A stretch of DNA of 64,000 nucleotides, taken from the NCBI GenBank assembly GCA_019358975.1, contig JAHHIL010000003.1, forward strand, positions 186,001 to 250,000, read 5' to 3'. Numbering within the stretch: position 1 is the stretch's first letter; every line of letters begins with the position of its first letter. The notes beneath the pieces are model-generated. The model saw nothing but the letters and a program-made list of their open reading frames with translations, had not been told where the DNA came from and searched no databases. Made by a program: the position numbers and the translations under genes. This document shows positions 37,872 through 47,366 of the stretch, one piece after another. This DNA is from Trichocoleus desertorum ATA4-8-CV12 (lineage in GTDB: Bacteria; Cyanobacteriota; Cyanobacteriia; FACHB-46).

Positions 37872-39203
37872 ATGTTTAGGCAAATTCGTCGTCCCCAGGG
37901 CAATCGCGTCGTCGTAGGGGGGTATCACCGCGATCGCCAAGATGACCGCGATCGTCGTTATGCTCGGCCTCGTAGCGTCAAGCAGAATAGCTTGCCCAAG
38001 TTTGTAGATTTGCGGCAGCACATGACCACCGTAGAAAGCCAAGGCGAGTTGGGAAGCTGTACAGCCAACGCGATCGCGGGAGCTTACGAATATTTAGCCA
38101 AGCGACTCACGGGGCAAAACTACGATATTAGTCGCTTGTTTATTTACTACATGGCCCGAAAATTCGATGGCTGTGAGCAAGAAGACAGCGGCGCAACCTT
38201 ACGTCGGGGCATGAAAGTTTTGGCTAAGTATGGGGCTTGCTCTGAAGCTACCTGGCCCTACCAGATTGAAACTTTCTGTGATGAACCGCACGATGATGCT
38301 TTTCAAGAAGCGGCTGAGCACTTAATTGATGAGTACGATCGCATTGATGTTAACTTGCACGCAATGAAAGTCTGTCTAGCCGAGGGTTATCCCTTCGTCT
38401 TCGGCTCCGACATCTTTCAATCTTTTGAAGATCTGGATCATCGGGGGCACGTCAACCTGCCTTTACCCAGTGAAGAAAATTTGGGTGGTCACGCCATGCT
38501 TGCTTGCGGCTACTCAGACAAAGACCAAGTGTTTCTAGTTCGCAACTCCTGGGGTACAGAGTGGGGCGACAAAGGCTACTGCTACATGCCTTATGAGTAC
38601 CTGACCAATTCAGACTTAACAGGCGATTGCTGGACCCTACGCCGTGCCAACAATCTCGATTTTTCAGACGGCATCAGCAGTAGCTATGAAGAAGGATTCT
38701 CGTTCTTTGATCTGCTAATCGAACTCCTCACAGGCACAGATGTCCCCACGGACGAAGCTAGTAATGAGGAAGAGTACGACGAAGAAGAAATAGACGAAGA
38801 GTACGAAGACGAGGAAGTAGACGAGGACGACGAAGAATCTGAAGAAGATGAGGAAGAGTACGAAGACGAAGAAGTAGACGAGGACGAAGAGGAAGAAGAG
38901 GACGAGGCAGACGAGAACGAGGACGAGTATGAAGATGAAGACGGGGGAGAGTATGAAGAGGAGTTTGAGGATGAAGACGAAGAAGTAGATGAGGACGAGG
39001 AAGAAGACGAGGCAGAAGACGAGGACGAGTATGAAGATGAAGGCGAAGAGGACGACGAAGAATCTGAAGAAGATGAGGAAGAGTACGAAGATGAGGAAGA
39101 GTACGAAGACGAAGAAGTAGAAGAGGACGAAGAAGTAGAAGAGGACGAAGAAGTAGAAGAGGACGAGTATGAAGACGAAGAGTACGAAGACGACGAGGAG
39201 TAG
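37872..39203 (+). CDS. papain-like (C1) cysteine protease with a 147-residue acidic tail
   Basis: The catalytic domain contains Gln57 and Cys63 in ESQGELGSCTANA, His207 in GGHAMLACGY and Asn225 in VRNSWGTEWGDKGYCYMP, the papain triad plus oxyanion Gln. There is no obvious signal peptide or propeptide; residues 1-37 are Arg/Gln-rich. The N-terminal extension (HRDRQDDRDRRYARPRS) is basic. From residue 297 to the end the protein is almost entirely Asp and Glu with periodic Tyr and Val. Normal C1 proteases are 220-350 residues and lack such a tail. Target unknown. The acidic tail is encoded by repetitive GA(A/C/T/G)-rich DNA and gives long, meaningless antisense frames. Confidence 0.88.
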   Translation: MFRQIRRPQGNRVVVGGYHRDRQDDRDRRYARPRSVKQNSLPKFVDLRQHMTTVESQGELGSCTANAIAGAYEYLAKRLTGQNYDISRLFIYYMARKFDGCEQEDSGATLRRGMKVLAKYGACSEATWPYQIETFCDEPHDDAFQEAAEHLIDEYDRIDVNLHAMKVCLAEGYPFVFGSDIFQSFEDLDHRGHVNLPLPSEENLGGHAMLACGYSDKDQVFLVRNSWGTEWGDKGYCYMPYEYLTNSDLTGDCWTLRRANNLDFSDGISSSYEEGFSFFDLLIELLTGTDVPTDEASNEEEYDEEEIDEEYEDEEVDEDDEESEEDEEEYEDEEVDEDEEEEEDEADENEDEYEDEDGGEYEEEFEDEDEEVDEDEEEDEAEDEDEYEDEGEEDDEESEEDEEEYEDEEEYEDEEVEEDEEVEEDEEVEEDEYEDEEYEDDEE

Positions 39204-40909: not shown

Positions 40910-41311
40910 TCAGACGGGACATAATTTCTGAAGCAGATTCATCAACTGCTGCCCATCTTCTGGGTAAGTCACATACTCGCGATCGCCTACCTGCACATCC
41001 TTACCTTCTAAATCCGCGCCGTACTGTTCTGCCAAAACGACAATCAGTGTGTTTTTGGGGAGCCCTGAGGTCTTACAAATCCGCTGTCCCATCTCAACAG
41101 TCTCCTCAATCGACTGCCTCCCATATTGGTTGAGCAAAATCAGATCGGGACAATGAAATCTACCCATCATCCGCTCGATCGCATCTTCTTCATCTAGAGC
41201 AATGATCACGTGATAACCTTGGCGCTTGAGATTGTGCTTCAGCAGGGGGCGGGTTTCGTCATCGGGTTCCACGACTAGAATCATAGGGGAGCTATCCTGT
41301 CTCTCGTTCAT
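40910..41311 (-). CDS. degenerate receiver-domain protein (Asn at the phospho-site)
   Basis: The CheY-like fold is recognisable: ILVVEPDDET holds the acidic pocket, and LILLNQYG is the strand that normally ends in the phospho-acceptor Asp. Here it is Asn61. The conserved switch Lys of the KP motif is Tyr116 (YVTYPEDG). So the protein cannot be phosphorylated in the ordinary way and is best called a pseudo-receiver. It shares 20 bases with the end of the gene upstream and is the last gene of the 41-44 kb cluster. Confidence 0.78.
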   Translation of the reverse strand: MNERQDSSPMILVVEPDDETRPLLKHNLKRQGYHVIIALDEEDAIERMMGRFHCPDLILLNQYGRQSIEETVEMGQRICKTSGLPKNTLIVVLAEQYGADLEGKDVQVGDREYVTYPEDGQQLMNLLQKLCPV

Positions 41312-41747
41312 AGAAAATTTTGCGATCGCCTTTTAGTCCTAAAACTTGAGTCACGCCCGCTCGACGCACGCCCAACATGTCCGCAATAAATTCCAGCGTC
41401 AATTTCAACTCGTCTGAGTTCACTCGGTCTTGCACTTCCAGCAGCCAGCGGGCGAGGCGTTCTTCTAAGTTATGGAGACTATTGCAGGCGATTGTCTGCA
41501 AGATCTGCGCGATCAAGACTTGGGTATAGCGCAACATCACGCTGCGCAATTCTTTGTTGCGATCGAACTCTTCTTTTAGCCATCCCGCCTCTATTCGGAA
41601 AGCCTTGCCAGGGATCTGAACGATATATTCTGTTTGGGTCGTCTCAGATCCGCCCATGAAAGTATTAACACCGAGCACATCACGGTTGCTGACAACCCCT
41701 GTCTCTGCGGTGCTACCGTCTTTCATAGGAATGGTGATCGAGAGCAT
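41292..41747 (-). pseudogene. CRP/FNR-family regulator, truncated at both ends
   Basis: The 151-residue frame matches the middle of a cyanobacterial CRP-type regulator: MKDGSTAETGVVSNRDVLGV, IVQIPGKAFRIEA, LRYTQVLIAQILQTIACNSL, EERLARWLLEVQDRV and the HTH start FIADMLGVRRAGVTQVL. Just upstream, codons HPGETIEHLYFPVDC (in frame, after a TAA) continue the family sequence, but the first 40 or so residues are missing. Downstream the HTH is cut: GVTQVLG runs into LKGDRKIFYERETG and a stop, instead of the second recognition helix and C-terminal strand. It therefore looks like a remnant, though a translated fragment is possible. Confidence 0.72.
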
Positions 41748-41831
41748 ACAATCAACGGGGAAATAGAGGTGTTCAATCGTTTCACCTGGATGTGCGGAAT
41801 TTTACCCCCTCAATGAATTATCTACTGAAGC

Positions 41832-42335
41832 TCACCTCAGATCCATTTGCGCCAATTCTAGGCGTTGGCGATCGAGCTTTGCGGCAGTGTGACGCATTTC
41901 CTCTAACACGAGCTGTTGCTCAAGGGTAGACTGGCGAACGTCTTCAGCCGTCCGTCGTAGCATCTCGGCTGCCACTCGCGCTTCCTCCGCCGCTTGTCGG
42001 GCTACTTCAGCCACTTGTCGGGCTTCCTCAGTTGCTTGTCGTAGGCTTTCTGCTGAGACCCGCAACCGCTCAGACAGTTGCCGCTGCGTCTCTGCCTCTA
42101 TTCGTTCAGCCTCAGCACTGACCCGAATTTCTTCAGCAAGCAACCTTTGCTGCTCAGCCGCTTCATAATACGCCGCTGCTTGAAGGTGTTGCTGGGTTAC
42201 TAAAGCTCGCTGAATTTCTGCTTGCTGCCTTTGCTGCTCTGCTGCCTGCCGTTGTTCTTCTGCTACTTGACGCTGCATCTCAGACGTATCATTGGTTCTA
42301 GAGCTTTGAGAAATGCTTGTTTGATGACCCATCAC
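41832..42335 (-). CDS. heptad-repeat coiled-coil protein
   Basis: Nearly the whole 167 residues are Ala/Gln/Glu/Arg-rich heptads of the type RQAAEEARVAAEM and RQVAEVARQAAEE, with no Pro or Gly breaks after residue 20. No domain of known function is visible. The ATG overlaps the last codons of the PAS-CRP gene by four bases (ATGA), which implies translational coupling. A structural or partner-binding role in the same regulatory unit is inference. Confidence 0.78.
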   Translation of the reverse strand: MMGHQTSISQSSRTNDTSEMQRQVAEEQRQAAEQQRQQAEIQRALVTQQHLQAAAYYEAAEQQRLLAEEIRVSAEAERIEAETQRQLSERLRVSAESLRQATEEARQVAEVARQAAEEARVAAEMLRRTAEDVRQSTLEQQLVLEEMRHTAAKLDRQRLELAQMDLR

Positions 42336-43582
42336 AATTGCACTCCTTGAGTCACGGGCAAATCTTCCCTCTTTATAGAGGTAACTTTGGCAGATGTAAC
42401 TTTGCTAAGTGGGAGGACAGCTAGAGAAGCGCCACTGTTACCCTCCAGCAAAATGAAGTGATACTGGGAGTCTACTCTCAGTATTTGATGCTGCTGAAAT
42501 TGTCTAAGTAGGCGGGTAATGGTGACTCTAGTGGTGCCACAAGCGATCGCGAGGTCTTCATGAGTCAGGCGCACGCTTAGCCGAGTCCCCCCAGTAATCG
42601 GCTGCCCCACTTCCTGCTTTAATAACTGCAACAAACTGTATAAGCGGTCTGAAACTCGGAGTTGACCATAAACAGTTAACAACAGCTCAGTTTGTTTAAG
42701 CCGTTGGCTAATTTGCGGCAGAAGGCGTTGCTGTAGCTCCGGAGAGGTCGCGTAATCGCTAAGGGGAATGCACCATAGCTGAGTATCAGCCAGGGCAGTC
42801 GCTTCATAGAGCGTTAGGGCAGTGAGGCTAGGGCCGAAGGGCGCTGCAGCCCCTGCTAAGCCAACCAATATTTCTTGTCCTGTTTGCGAAAAAGTGGTTA
42901 ATTTCACCAGTCCTGACTGCACCTGCCAAATTCCTTGCAGACTTAAAGGAATGGTTTCCCCTTTGTGATAGGTTCGCAAAGGATAGCTCAGGTTAGGGGT
43001 ATGGTCAGACGGCTGATGATCGCTGAGATAGCGCAAGAGCCAGCGCAGCAGGGGTGGTTGGCTAGAGTCTTGGCAACTTACTTCGACCAGAATGCTGGCA
43101 TTAAAGGCAACGCCTTGATGTGGCTGCAATTGCACCTGCCATTCATGTTTCCAAGATCTTTGTTGGAGCCGTTGTAGCTCACCTTGAAACTGTGGCCGAG
43201 TTTCTTGAGGCACAAAAGCTGTGAGTAAGCGACCTGTGATTAAAGAGGGTGGAAGATTCAATAACTTGGTAGCCGCTTGATTGGCTTGCTGAATGACCCC
43301 AGCAGCATCCGTGATCAAACAAGCATCTGGAATGAATTCCAACAATTCTTGATAGCGTTGGCGCTCAGTTGCGACGCTTTGGCTAGCCAATAATAGTTGC
43401 TGATTCTGCTGGTTGAGTAAGTTGGCTGCCACCTGAAGTCGCTCAGAGGCAATGCCTAGTTCTTTTAGGGCTGAGGGTAATAGAGTGGGCGATAAGGTAG
43501 AAGAGGTGCCGATGCCTTTATATAAATCGCTTAAGCGATCGGACATCGCGGCTACCTGTTGCGTAAAGGTGGTTGCATTCAT
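42332..43582 (-). CDS. PAS-CRP fusion transcriptional regulator
   Basis: N-terminal helices lead to a PAS domain at about 75-190 (YQELLEFIPDACLITDAAGVI, NQAATKLLNL, WKHEWQVQL). A cNMP-binding-like beta-roll follows (about 200-300; SGLVKLTTFSQTGQEILVGLAG), then a helical linker and a CRP-type HTH (LTHEDLAIACGTTRVTITRL; 339-358). The roll does not show a full cAMP phosphate cassette (RxE.ALA-type), so another ligand or none may bind. The start codon overlaps the end of the receiver gene (ATGA), so both are probably cotranslated. Confidence 0.85.
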   Translation of the reverse strand: MNATTFTQQVAAMSDRLSDLYKGIGTSSTLSPTLLPSALKELGIASERLQVAANLLNQQNQQLLLASQSVATERQRYQELLEFIPDACLITDAAGVIQQANQAATKLLNLPPSLITGRLLTAFVPQETRPQFQGELQRLQQRSWKHEWQVQLQPHQGVAFNASILVEVSCQDSSQPPLLRWLLRYLSDHQPSDHTPNLSYPLRTYHKGETIPLSLQGIWQVQSGLVKLTTFSQTGQEILVGLAGAAAPFGPSLTALTLYEATALADTQLWCIPLSDYATSPELQQRLLPQISQRLKQTELLLTVYGQLRVSDRLYSLLQLLKQEVGQPITGGTRLSVRLTHEDLAIACGTTRVTITRLLRQFQQHQILRVDSQYHFILLEGNSGASLAVLPLSKVTSAKVTSIKREDLPVTQGVQL

Positions 43583-43977
43583 GTTGTAGGCACCAGTTGA
43601 TAGGATTCAGTTAGGTCAGCAACCGTGGCAATTAACTCGTCAATATCAACAGGTTTAGCTAAAAGCTTGCGAAAGCCAACGGCTAGGGCATGATCACGGT
43701 CATCCTTCCTGTGGTATCCAGTCAGGGCGATCGCGGGGATGTGAGCTTGGTGTCTACTCTCTAGAGCTTTTACCTGCGGCATCAGGGAGTAACCATCCTG
43801 GCCGGGTAAGGCAAGTTCGCTGATTAACAGATCTGGTTTAATATCTTGCAGAATTGCTAGCGCTTCGCAGGCCGAGGCTGCAGCAATCGTCCTGATTCCA
43901 TAAATTGCAAACAGCGCAGTCAGCAAATGTCTAGAATCGGGGTCGTTATCAACCACTAGCACTTGTAACTCTTTCAT
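43579..43977 (-). CDS. receiver-domain protein with Glu at the phospho-site
   Basis: From ATG 43977 the protein starts MKELQVLVVDNDPDSRHLL, a normal receiver N-terminus with both pocket Asp residues. The strand that holds the phosphoacceptor reads DLLISELALPGQDGY, so the expected Asp is Glu54. The Thr/Lys switch is intact (ALTGY, LLAKPVD). Glu at this place often mimics the phosphorylated state, so the protein may be fixed in the active form (inference). The earlier ATG at 44079 would add 34 Cys-rich residues unlike a receiver. The gene overlaps the PAS-CRP start by four bases. Confidence 0.82.
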   Translation of the reverse strand: MKELQVLVVDNDPDSRHLLTALFAIYGIRTIAAASACEALAILQDIKPDLLISELALPGQDGYSLMPQVKALESRHQAHIPAIALTGYHRKDDRDHALAVGFRKLLAKPVDIDELIATVADLTESYQLVPTT

Positions 43978-44408
43978 CAACCTTGGAGGGCAAGTTGTCT
44001 CCGTAGGTCTGGTCTTATTAGAGAAGGTACAGCCAAACTCGGCAGATAATGGGCACATACAATTCTGCTCAAAAGACAAAAGTGCTTGATTCGTTGTCTA
44101 GTCGTTTAGATGAGTTAAGTTTTTAAGCTTAAAAGCTGCAAGTTCTATTCAGTGACTCGATTGAAGGCCATCAGTCAGGTTCGGCACTTGCAACCCAAAT
44201 ACTGATCTTCTTTGAGAATAAGGCGATCGCTGAAAAGATTCAGTACGATTTCGTACGAACAGATTCCTCGTTCGGTTTTTACGTAAATGCTAGTTGTCTC
44301 CGCTCAGGGCGCAGGAAATACGACAGCCCTGCTGGCGCTCCCCGGTGCGATCGCCTACGCCTCAATGCTCTTAGTCAGCTTTGACACCACCAGCACGCAG
44401 CAACTCCC
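43978..44408. other. 431-base region upstream of the signalling cluster
   Basis: No gene is called. It contains the palindrome GTACGATTTCGTAC (44243-44256), overlapping TTCGTACGAA (44250-44259), and a possible 42-codon frame at 44287-44415 that overlaps the end of the next gene and is not convincing. Promoters for the minus-strand cluster must lie here. Confidence 0.4.
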
Positions 44409-45365
44409 TCAGTGACAAGGGTTGCTACCGGAGTCTGCAAAACTCTTGCCAGCTACAGAAATAAAGCGCCAATCATAGCTGGTTGGGTGCAAGGTCAGTT
44501 TCAAGACGCCATAGGTATCGGCGTTTTGCACCTGGCTATTCGGTTGAATCTCATCCAATTCATAGTGATTCTTACCCCCGGTTCCCACCACAAACTGACG
44601 TATACCGCGATCGGGGTCTAGCTTGCCTTGCGGAGTTTGGGGAGCAAAACGCTCATAGTGATGGTCATGCCCTGCCAAGGCAACATCTACGCCCGCAGCA
44701 TAAAGCGTTTGCCAAAAAGCCTGAGTGTTGGGGTCGTTGCCATGATGCCCAGAAGAGAAGCGGGGGTGATGCCAATAAGCTAAGGTGCATTTCCTCGGGT
44801 GCGCTGCCAAGTCTGCTTTGAGCCATCGCTCTTGAGGTGAACCTCGATGGCACCCCCCTACCTGGGAGCAATTAGAATTCAGCGCAATGATGTGCCACTG
44901 TCCAAGGTCGTAACTATAATACCCCTGCTGCGGATCGCCTGCGGCTGCCCCAAAGTAGCGGTAATAGGCAGCAGCGCCCGGAGTGGCGTACTCATGATTG
45001 CCTACGACTGGCCGAGTAATCGACTTAAGCTTGCCCCAACTAGGGTCATAAGATTTTTGAAAGCCCTCAGCGCTGCCAACTTCGTATTGCAAATCACCGA
45101 GGGGCAAAACAGCGGCTAGATCTTCGTTGAGTAAAAGCTGGGCTGTCGCCTGCATCCGGCAAGCTGTGGCGGTTCCTCGTCCCTGGTTAAAGTTGGGGCT
45201 GTTGGGATCGCAAGCGATGTCTCCCGCTGCCGCGATCGCTGGAGCAGTTCCTGCCACTCTAGTTTCTGTCACTCTATTAGATTGCGTCTGCTTCACCTGA
45301 TTGGCAACCCAATAACTTCCCGATGCCAATCCCACAGCTAGAAGCAACACTACAACTGGACGCAT
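44409..45365 (-). CDS. secreted or anchored calcineurin-like phosphoesterase
   Basis: An N-terminal hydrophobic helix (VVVLLLAVGLASGSYWVA) precedes a metallophosphoesterase domain: AAAGDIACD, LPLGDLQYEVG, PVVGNHEY, YWHHPRFSSG and LAGHDHHYERF. These are the five metal-binding and catalytic blocks of the purple acid phosphatase/PhoD-like group. Substrate unknown. The stop-to-start distance to the upstream SH3-protein gene is seven bases, suggesting cotranscription on the minus strand. Confidence 0.88.
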   Translation of the reverse strand: MRPVVVLLLAVGLASGSYWVANQVKQTQSNRVTETRVAGTAPAIAAAGDIACDPNSPNFNQGRGTATACRMQATAQLLLNEDLAAVLPLGDLQYEVGSAEGFQKSYDPSWGKLKSITRPVVGNHEYATPGAAAYYRYFGAAAGDPQQGYYSYDLGQWHIIALNSNCSQVGGCHRGSPQERWLKADLAAHPRKCTLAYWHHPRFSSGHHGNDPNTQAFWQTLYAAGVDVALAGHDHHYERFAPQTPQGKLDPDRGIRQFVVGTGGKNHYELDEIQPNSQVQNADTYGVLKLTLHPTSYDWRFISVAGKSFADSGSNPCH

Positions 45366-45372
45366 AGATTCC

Positions 45373-46137
45373 CTATTTCACTTGAGCGGAGAAGGCATAA
45401 TCGTAGCCTTTGAAGTTTGAGTCTAGCTCCAAGGTGTACTCTCCGGTAGCGGGAAGTTCACCAGTCCAGTTTTGCCGATTTTCATCATAATTCTCGGAAA
45501 TCAAAGGCTGGCCTGTGGGAGCCAAGATGTTAGGGAAGACATCTTTTTGATTCGTAACGGTTAAGGTTTGGCCTTGATTAGCCCTGAATACATACTTGTG
45601 GCTACCAGTGCCGACAAAGCGATCGGCGATCGCCACCGTTCCACCTGCTTGAGGAAGCGCAATCCGGGCTGTCTTTTGGTTGCAATTGCTCTCAGTCCGA
45701 TTTTTGGCGACCCAACCCGCAACTTCATTGCCATCCAATGACCTGATCTGAAACCAGCCATCTCTCTCGGCCACTACTGACAGCCAAGAGCCGTTTTTGA
45801 GAGTGCCGACTACATTATCAGGTTGAACTTCTGGCTCAGAACGAATATTTAGAGGGGGATTGGGATCAGCCGCGATCGCCTGAGTTACGACACAGTTTTC
45901 CACCTGTACAGCTGGCTCACCGTCCTGAGCATTATTAACGGGAAAAGACTTGAGGGGTTGCGCCGTCGAGGGAGGAACGGCTGCGGGACTAGAGCCTGGA
46001 GTCGCTGGGGTTGTGGGGGCTGTCGGGCTGGGGCTCGCTGTTAAGTCCGGTTCGGGGGCTGAAGCGCAGGCAACACAGACCAAGGACACCAGTGTGAGCA
46101 GACCAGTTCCAAGCATTCTGTGAAATTGAGGAGGCAT
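45373..46137 (-). CDS. SH3b-domain lipoprotein-like protein
   Basis: From ATG 46137 the protein starts MPPQFHRMLGTGLLTLVSLV and has a lipobox-like LVCVAC, followed by a Pro/Thr-rich linker (SPSPTAPTTPATPGSSPAAV). A bacterial SH3 domain (PPLNIRSEPEVQPDNVVGTL) and a C-terminal beta domain (GQTLTVTN ... YTLELDSN) follow. SH3b and PPC-like beta domains often bind cell-wall or peptide ligands. A more N-terminal ATG (46182) is possible but not needed. It is the paralog of the next gene upstream, and lies just before the phosphoesterase. Confidence 0.75.
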   Translation of the reverse strand: MPPQFHRMLGTGLLTLVSLVCVACASAPEPDLTASPSPTAPTTPATPGSSPAAVPPSTAQPLKSFPVNNAQDGEPAVQVENCVVTQAIAADPNPPLNIRSEPEVQPDNVVGTLKNGSWLSVVAERDGWFQIRSLDGNEVAGWVAKNRTESNCNQKTARIALPQAGGTVAIADRFVGTGSHKYVFRANQGQTLTVTNQKDVFPNILAPTGQPLISENYDENRQNWTGELPATGEYTLELDSNFKGYDYAFSAQVK

Positions 46138-46227
46138 ATGAATGAAATCCGTAGAGGGGTTGGATGGAGGAATTGAGGTCAAGGTTCTACAGAGTCTCAG
46201 AGCCAGAATTCAACCAACCGATGAAGC

Positions 46228-47292
46228 TCAGTCAAGTTGGACTGAAAAGGCATAATCATAGGGTTGCGATCGAGAATCGAGCTTGAGCTTGTAGGTGCCA
46301 CTGAGCGGTAGTTTGCCTGTCCAGCGTGTGGGCCAATTGCTTGTCTCAACCAGCAAGGTACCGTTTGGGGCCATGATGATGGGTAAAGGGCCTAAGCCGC
46401 CAGTATCAATTGTGAGAGTTTGCCCTTGAACTGCGCTCAGCAGGTATTGGTGGACTCCCGAACTAGCAAAACGGCCAGCCACCGTAGTAGGACGGTTATT
46501 GTCAGCGAGGGTAATCGACTTGGTTTTATTGTCGTAGTTTCCACTCGTGTGGCCCTGCTGCTCAATGGTGGCCTTTACCACTGGTGTTAACTTCTCTTTC
46601 CAGAAGCGAATCTCCGGAAACCCATTCACTTGGCTCAAGACATCTTGCCATCGCTGCTCTTCGAAAGCTTGTTGCGCGGCTTGAAAGCGAGTTTTTGCCT
46701 GTTGCCAATCTTGTTGCCACTGGGCGATCGCTAGCTGAGCTTCGGCATAGGCAAGGCTATCTTGGGGCACCGCTTTGGCTAAAGCCATTGCCACCTCCAA
46801 ATTACCTGCTTGGTATTGCTCGGTGGCGGTCGCTAACAAAGTAGGGCCAGCATCTGCAGGCTGGCTAGAGCTAGCAGGAGCCGAGGTAGATCCGCGAGCA
46901 GGAACGCCATTAGCTGTGGGGCAACTCGTGAGAGTCCGAGTTTTGTAAACCCAACCTGCAATCGGAGTGTTGACTTGAAACCATTCGTCTTGTTCTAGCA
47001 CTACAGACAGGCGGGTGCCATTGGCGAGCTGTCCCACCACATTGCCTGAGGCGACCACTGGGCTAGAGCGCACATTTAAGGGTGGCATCGGATCGCTGAC
47101 TAAGGTGAGGCAACTTTGCGACTGAATCACTTTTGCAGAGGCCCTTTCGGATATCCCGATTGATGGCTCAGTGGAGTTAGTGCTGGGGTTTGCGGCAGGA
47201 ACCGAGCTCTGATGCACCCTGTAACTGAGTCCTGCTACGGTTGCGATCGCCACTATCCCGGAGCCCACCAAAAGGGGAAGCTTCAGTTTCAT
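46228..47292 (-). CDS. SH3b-domain membrane protein, paralog of the neighbour
   Basis: An N-terminal helix (LPLLVGSGIVAIATVAGLSY) anchors or exports the protein. It has an SH3b segment (MPPLNVRSSPVVASGNVVGQ) and a C-terminal beta domain that aligns with that of the adjacent gene (GQTLTIDTG ... TYKLKLDSRSQPYDYAFSVQ versus YTLELDSNFKGYDYAFSAQ). Between them is a helical, Gln/Ala-rich segment of about 100 residues. The two genes therefore came from a local duplication followed by insertion of a linker. ATG 47292 (MKLKLPLLVG) is used rather than the GTG/ATG at 47316. Confidence 0.75.
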   Translation of the reverse strand: MKLKLPLLVGSGIVAIATVAGLSYRVHQSSVPAANPSTNSTEPSIGISERASAKVIQSQSCLTLVSDPMPPLNVRSSPVVASGNVVGQLANGTRLSVVLEQDEWFQVNTPIAGWVYKTRTLTSCPTANGVPARGSTSAPASSSQPADAGPTLLATATEQYQAGNLEVAMALAKAVPQDSLAYAEAQLAIAQWQQDWQQAKTRFQAAQQAFEEQRWQDVLSQVNGFPEIRFWKEKLTPVVKATIEQQGHTSGNYDNKTKSITLADNNRPTTVAGRFASSGVHQYLLSAVQGQTLTIDTGGLGPLPIIMAPNGTLLVETSNWPTRWTGKLPLSGTYKLKLDSRSQPYDYAFSVQLD

Positions 47293-47366
47293 AACTTCAA
47301 TGCTGTTGTGATACACCCAAATCCAATTTTCTCAAAGAAGTGCGATCGCCCTCGTAGAATAAACTA

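Follow-up and report, generated by a model that had tools for sequence, protein, structure and literature searches.

The window analysed here is a 64,000-nucleotide stretch of the Trichocoleus desertorum ATA4-8-CV12 genome (assembly GCA_019358975.1, contig JAHHIL010000003.1, positions 186,001 to 250,000), and our subject is a cluster of five minus-strand genes at 40910-43977 within it. Read from the 5' end of the cluster, these encode a single-domain receiver with Glu at the phospho-acceptor site (called RecE here), a protein with PAS and CRP-like parts (PAS-CRP), a heptad coiled-coil protein, the remnant of another CRP-family gene, and a single-domain pseudo-receiver with Asn at the acceptor site (RecN). 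We propose that the cluster is one copy of a conserved cyanobacterial cassette, ordered operator, RecE, PAS-CRP, (coil), CRP, RecN, that its 3' side has partly decayed in this copy, and that the cassette would work as an autoregulated switch with unphosphorylatable receivers. Built from sequence comparison, this proposal taken whole could in our judgement go either way.

Open reading frames (ORFs) and domain matches confirmed the five signalling genes in the order and at the coordinates of the original prediction, which had been made from the sequence of the window. It had also described three of the genes as joined by ATGA overlaps. Only the RecE/PAS-CRP junction (43579-43582) is ATGA; PAS-CRP and the coil gene overlap by GTGA, and between the CRP remnant and RecN the overlap is 20 nucleotides. 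No kinase gene lies within the window cassette. Genomes are cited below by handle where they must be told apart: G000 is the window's own (the window lies on its contig C3), and G001 and G002 are two further species of the same genus.

Recurrence of the cassette in other cyanobacteria

The RecN family was set apart by searching the genomes of one family (42) and of one order (120) with a four-sequence RecN alignment. Fifteen loci in 13 genomes (G035 and G213 counted) matched at E <1e-35, against about 1e-12 to 1e-9 for ordinary receivers; a single-sequence RecN search across 386 genomes of the phylum turned up relatives in two besides the window's own. A CRP-family gene lies directly upstream of RecN on the same strand at all 15 loci, and also in one G001 pair found through its operator, making 16/16 outside the genus's main locus. 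Distances among the CRPs correlate with those among the RecNs (Mantel r 0.73, 0/10000 permutations, over 17 loci including the window remnant), a correlation to which shared genome descent contributes.

RecE is found upstream of the CRP at five of the 15 RecN loci. One of these, in G519, has the complete order RecE-(ATGA)-PAS-CRP-CRP-RecN; the others (G035, G465, G429 and one locus of G434) have RecE-CRP-RecN. PAS-CRP stands between RecE, or traces of it, and CRP at four of the 15, in G519, G489, G500 and G461. The last three are all PAS-CRP-CRP-RecN, with RecE reduced to a 79-codon piece in G500 and to traces in G489 and G461. In G048 there is RecE-CRP, with RecN missing. Judged by these alignments and gene orders, distant families have the cassette together with its residue replacements.

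The original prediction had stated that the acceptor Asp is missing from both receivers, replaced by Glu in one and by Asn in the other, which also lacks the switch Lys, and had named conservation of gene order and of these replacements in relatives as the check. All of this was borne out: the order recurs, Glu is kept in 9/9 intact RecE and Asn in 17/18 RecN. The two outcomes named as fatal to it, Asp in the orthologous receivers or a cluster existing in this genome alone as a decayed region, are not what we found, in that no relative's RecE or RecN has Asp and the cluster is not confined to one genome.

A candidate operator shared by cassette copies

Upstream of the first cassette gene, and missed by the original prediction, lies a palindrome GTACG-N4-CGTAC-TGA, with TANNNT following 22-23 bases on. 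In the window it reads GTACGAAATCGTAC and then TGA (44243-44256, minus strand), and the predicted -10 element, TATTCT, is 22 nucleotides past it (44215-44220, minus strand). No -35-type promoter was found in this region, which fits an activator-dependent promoter.

This putative operator stands ahead of most cassette copies and, as far as pattern matching tells, is nearly private to these genes. It precedes 12 of the 18 loci examined: all 11 with RecE and/or PAS-CRP, and G471, which has CRP-RecN only. Over 16 sites, positions 4/5 are C (16) and G (15) and positions 10/11 are C (14) and G (16); G465 has differing inner bases, and G035 has TGT for TGA. G000 and G001 each have a single copy of the core GTACG-N4-CGTAC (GTACGNNNNCGTAC) and G002 has two, the second lying within a large ORF. 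GTACN6GTACTGA combined with the -10 element gave 13 matches in 12 whole cassette genomes, against 0 for the control, and all 13 are upstream of cassette-family genes; 11 of them are the cassettes used to design the pattern and hence are not independent. The two outside the design precede the second CRP-RecN pair of G001 and a solo PAS-CRP of G465. At the latter (L166 1501-2134, G465:C62) the operator is followed by a pentapeptide-repeat-like ORF and then by the solo PAS-CRP. A simple window scan had flagged the palindrome as a possible RNA hairpin or terminator; we rejected this, since its bases, not just its pairing, are near-invariant in the 16 sites and the T run is not kept.

The alternative that survives best is that the operon is an ordinary NtcA target. 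NtcA, which senses nitrogen status through 2-oxoglutarate, would bind the GTAN8TAC-like site and activate a signalling operon whose products act elsewhere. From its sequence the promoter fits the canonical NtcA-dependent layout, GTAN8TAC and then a TAN3T -10 element with class II spacing, centred near -41.5 (PMC3898017), and G000 encodes NtcA (L006), a regulator described in the same paper as universal in cyanobacteria. The inner bases do not fit, since positions 4/5 are C/G and 10/11 mostly C/G, against T/C and A in the NtcA consensus, where these bases are called 'somewhat conserved' (PMC3898017). The distribution also speaks against it: 508 putative NtcA site sequences, that is hundreds, are reported for Anabaena (PMC3898017), whereas GTACGNNNNCGTAC is single in G000 and the 13 pattern matches all fall at cassette-family genes. 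We consider an ordinary NtcA target unlikely, but it is the competitor to be taken most seriously.

The CRP-family regulators

PAS-CRP (42332-43582, minus strand) consists of an N-terminal helix, a PAS domain and an NtcA/PtrA-like CRP half (about residues 194-388) with a helix-turn-helix (HTH). It matches PAS, cNMP_binding (weakly, below cut-off) and HTH_Crp_2, and its Crp-like HTH scores 42.0 bits with PF13545 (cut-off 27), as in the CRP/FNR superfamily; confidence is low in the PAS half of the predicted model. For the CRP half the best sequence-family match is PtrA (NF053664, 1.9e-50, residues 206-379), and the best solved-structure match, among those listed, is NtcA (Z 21, 26% identity; 6.8e-29).

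Homologues of PAS-CRP (E 1e-60 or better) are present in 34 of the 386 phylum genomes. No RecE-like neighbour was found at 27 of these phylum loci, annotated with 1.5 kb flanks (L054-L080), from which we conclude that the cassette-linked PAS-CRPs are a sub-clade of a wider family. Linked copies outside the genus are 62-67% identical to the window's PAS-CRP, and the wider family about 45%. CheB- or CheR-like genes, recognised by eye, were noted beside PAS-CRP genes or the cassette at L045, L046, L047, L052, L153, L158, L160 and L161.

The CRP remnant (41292-41792, minus strand) still contains an ORF, 41292-41747, that matches HTH_Crp_2. Some 38 residues are gone from its N-terminus, and a stretch of some 40 is missing from just past the GVTQ of the HTH to the C-terminal tail. 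Because it is 51-68% identical to the intact CRPs upstream of RecN elsewhere, we regard it as the decayed original member of the cassette; the remnant of the original prediction is thus present, not as a working gene. The cassette CRPs are a CRP group different from the PAS-CRP half, and they reached no NCBIfam cut-off.

Coil and fate of the 3' half within the genus

The coil gene (41832-42335, minus strand) has a 3.5-residue period equalled in strength by 1/2000 shuffles, and lag-7 identity is 32%, versus about 8-13% at most other lags. The heptad coil had been proposed as a partner of the regulator. The coil is real, but as a general partner it fails: within the cassette it belongs only to this genus (the window and G002), and none was seen in the cassette loci examined outside the genus.

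All three species of the genus have RecE and PAS-CRP intact and in synteny (80-85% identity), whereas neither sister species has an unbroken RecN half. The G002 copy joins coil and RecN in a single 290-aa ORF that contains no intervening CRP, and its RecN C-terminus is cut by a transposase-like insertion, which we take to be an IS630-like element. The main locus of G001 has lost the coil to deletion and has a broken RecN; a second, intact CRP-RecN pair with its own operator is found elsewhere in that genome (L176 28-1297, G001:C84), divergent from what looks by eye like a LuxR-type response regulator. The G002 fusion suggested that a CRP fragment had been inserted into a coil-RecN gene. We rejected this, since CRP adjoins RecN at all other loci, and the fusion is accordingly interpreted as a later deletion of CRP. 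The genus genomes alone would suggest a decaying region; the wider genomes reverse that reading.

A narrower version of decay is that the window copy is mostly relic, with RecE and PAS-CRP at work, the coil, CRP remnant and RecN functionless leftovers, and the genus losing the cassette. The truncated CRP of the window and the fused, interrupted, deleted and broken genes of G002 and G001 are what it predicts. Yet the window RecN is an intact ORF with all the family residues, and its ratio of nonsynonymous to synonymous substitution rates (dN/dS) against G002 is 0.14, with 0.27 for the coil. The upstream pair, moreover, is intact in 3/3 species, and G001 holds its intact CRP-RecN pair with operator. 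We find a relic improbable, next in line after NtcA.

Two kinds of aspartate-less receiver

RecE and RecN are aspartate-less receivers: each has a receiver fold without the acceptor Asp. RecE (43579-43977, minus strand; possible upstream start 44058) scores 70.8 bits with PF00072, above the curated cut-off of 30.2. All nine intact copies have Glu at the acceptor site and retain the switch Thr and Lys; the second acidic-pocket residue, Asn in the window, is Asn, Ser, Ala or Pro and is acidic in 0/9. Among the nearest receivers to RecE, 29 were compared, being those with loci retrieved from a much longer set of matches. Asp is present in 27 of them; the remaining two, with Glu, are the RecE of G035 and of G048. 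Purifying selection acts on RecE and PAS-CRP as estimated from the aligned genes of the three species, with dN/dS of 0.17-0.21 and 0.12-0.13, respectively.

The Glu of RecE had been called 'active-like'. We take D10 of PhoB to be the equivalent of the second acidic residue lost in RecE. The PhoB double mutant D10A/D53E, 'constitutively active' in the title of PDB entry 2jb9, combines Glu with loss of the second acid, as RecE does. This shared loss strengthens the 'active-like' interpretation.

RecN (40910-41311, minus strand) diverges further from the PF00072 profile, at 20.5 bits, below the same cut-off, with 16.7-23.4 bits for the RecN of four relatives. Its predicted model (predicted local distance difference test score 91.9) has the receiver fold, with Z 12-14 to receivers among the matches listed. 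The acceptor is Asn in 17 of 18 copies, namely 16/17 loci of the main comparison (Ser in G429) and G002; Ala replaces Thr/Ser and Tyr replaces the switch Lys in 17/17.

That the receivers still serve two-component signalling by other chemistry, such as Glu methylation or phosphorylation, or Asn deamidation to Asp, possibilities raised for aspartate-less receivers (PMC4395418), would suit the Thr and Lys of RecE and the CheR/CheB-like genes seen by eye near several relatives, but is very improbable given RecN without Thr/Ser and Lys in 17/17, RecE without the second metal-binding acid in 9/9 and the cassette without a kinase gene.

Near two other PAS-CRP genes, G022 has receivers with Ser (L048 6443-6874) and with Glu (L049 5546-6001) at the acceptor; the PAS-CRP gene near the Glu receiver has GTACN6GTAC at -377. 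Aspartate-less receivers beside PAS-CRP may thus extend beyond this cassette.

Proposed mechanism

In the autoregulated cassette that we propose, PAS-CRP, and CRP where it is intact, would bind the GTACG-N4-CGTAC site, whose centre is near -41.5, and would switch on the operon that encodes them by class II activation, a positive autoregulation. RecE and RecN would take no phosphate; their effect would come from binding to the CRP-type proteins. RecE, with its Glu and without the second acidic residue, would present a receiver surface that is permanently 'on', and RecN would serve CRP as a fixed partner of the pseudo-receiver type, its effect perhaps opposite to that of RecE. Either the PAS domain or the degenerate effector pocket in the CRP half might receive the signal. 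In the window lineage, PAS-CRP may have taken over from the decaying CRP. A more specific form is tentative: a phosphate-free module in which 'on' RecE and 'off' RecN (Asn/Ala/Tyr) are antagonistic stand-alone partners of CRP-family activators with a private operator, feedback being on their own operon only, would amount to a bistable switch whose state depends on the PAS domain and the receiver ratio.

Several observations weigh against the autoregulated cassette. Its parts are dispensable: RecE is lost in G489, G500 and G461, and RecN in G048 and at the main locus of G001. The exact operator is missing at six bare CRP-RecN loci, among which G213 has a one-mismatch version, and GTACN6GTAC is missing from the 600 bp upstream in 36 of the 37 PAS-CRP loci examined outside the linked clade. 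No cassette CRP-type regulator is common to all operator loci. PAS-CRP as sole binder was rejected on G434, which has the operator and no full-length PAS-CRP, and CRP as sole binder on the cassettes of G000 and G002, which have no intact CRP. Finally, in the 386-genome sample the full operator pattern gave 8 matches, versus 21 for the reversed control, so across the phylum the pattern by itself shows no enrichment.

Those 8 matches lie in G000, G048, G163 (ahead of another CRP-family gene), G033, G389, G168, G381 and G254; we took the last four for chance. Four have G after the first GTAC, and three of these precede a RecE or CRP-family gene. At G033 (L189 1543, minus strand, G033:C70) the operator is perfect and no clear gene lies behind it. 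The exact operator, by these scans, is rare, and where the inner G is present it mostly belongs to this family.

Comparison with known systems

NtcA resembles PAS-CRP in the fold of the CRP half, in promoter layout and in the HTH, TTRVTITRLL in PAS-CRP against STRVTVTRLL in G000's own NtcA. In the NtcA family (TIGR03697), however, PAS-CRP scores 58.7 bits against a cut-off of 244.95, the inner operator bases differ, and PAS-CRP is without the NtcA loop bearing the arginine that we take to be the 2-oxoglutarate residue. PtrA, of the Crp/Fnr family (NF053664), is the family closest to the CRP half. Even so, PAS-CRP reaches 170.9 bits against a cut-off of 300, and the 196 positions of the PtrA model include no PAS domain; G000's own short PtrA homologue is likewise under the cut-off, at 215.7. 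In marine Synechococcus, PtrA itself is described as a regulator of the CRP family that acts in severe phosphate stress (PMC11098088).

RitR, ChxR and NblR are receivers fused to their own DNA-binding domain. The cassette receivers share the replaced acceptor Asp with these and other aspartate-less or pseudo-receivers, but are stand-alone and share their gene cluster with CRP-family regulators that are separate proteins. In aspartate-less receivers the commonest acceptor replacements are given as Glu (26%) and Asn (16%), and the second acidic residue is often lost (PMC4395418). BldM-WhiI of Streptomyces offers phosphorylation-independent receivers working by protein partnership (PMC4125116), as the cassette receivers would; as presented there, BldM and WhiI are both full response regulators that form a heterodimer, with no CRP-family protein in the pair. 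The parts of the cassette are known families; the titles and abstract starts of the open-access literature searched gave no description of their arrangement, of a pair of aspartate-less receivers or of the private operator.

Neighbouring genes

Directly upstream of the operator, and conserved within the genus, is a gene for a calcineurin-like phosphoesterase (44409-45365, minus strand), possibly relevant in view of the likeness between PtrA, a phosphate-stress regulator, and the CRP half of PAS-CRP. Two tandem ORFs follow at 45373-47316 (minus strand); relatives of both occupy the same place in G001 and G002, where the two types are about 30% identical mutually. On the other side, a plus-strand gene at 37872-39203 encodes a presumably cysteine-peptidase-like protein whose last ~150 residues are nearly all Asp, Glu and Tyr; it is conserved in both sister species.

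Significance

How bacterial pseudo-receivers switch has been termed a mystery (PMC12632262). In the cassette, conserved gene order links aspartate-less receivers of two kinds, both stand-alone proteins, to CRP-family regulators encoded separately, and the nearly private candidate operator offers a direct read-out in a small system, testable in vitro and by reporters. It would be an example, too, of a PAS-fused relative replacing a CRP-type regulator under an operator that, it seems, stayed unchanged.

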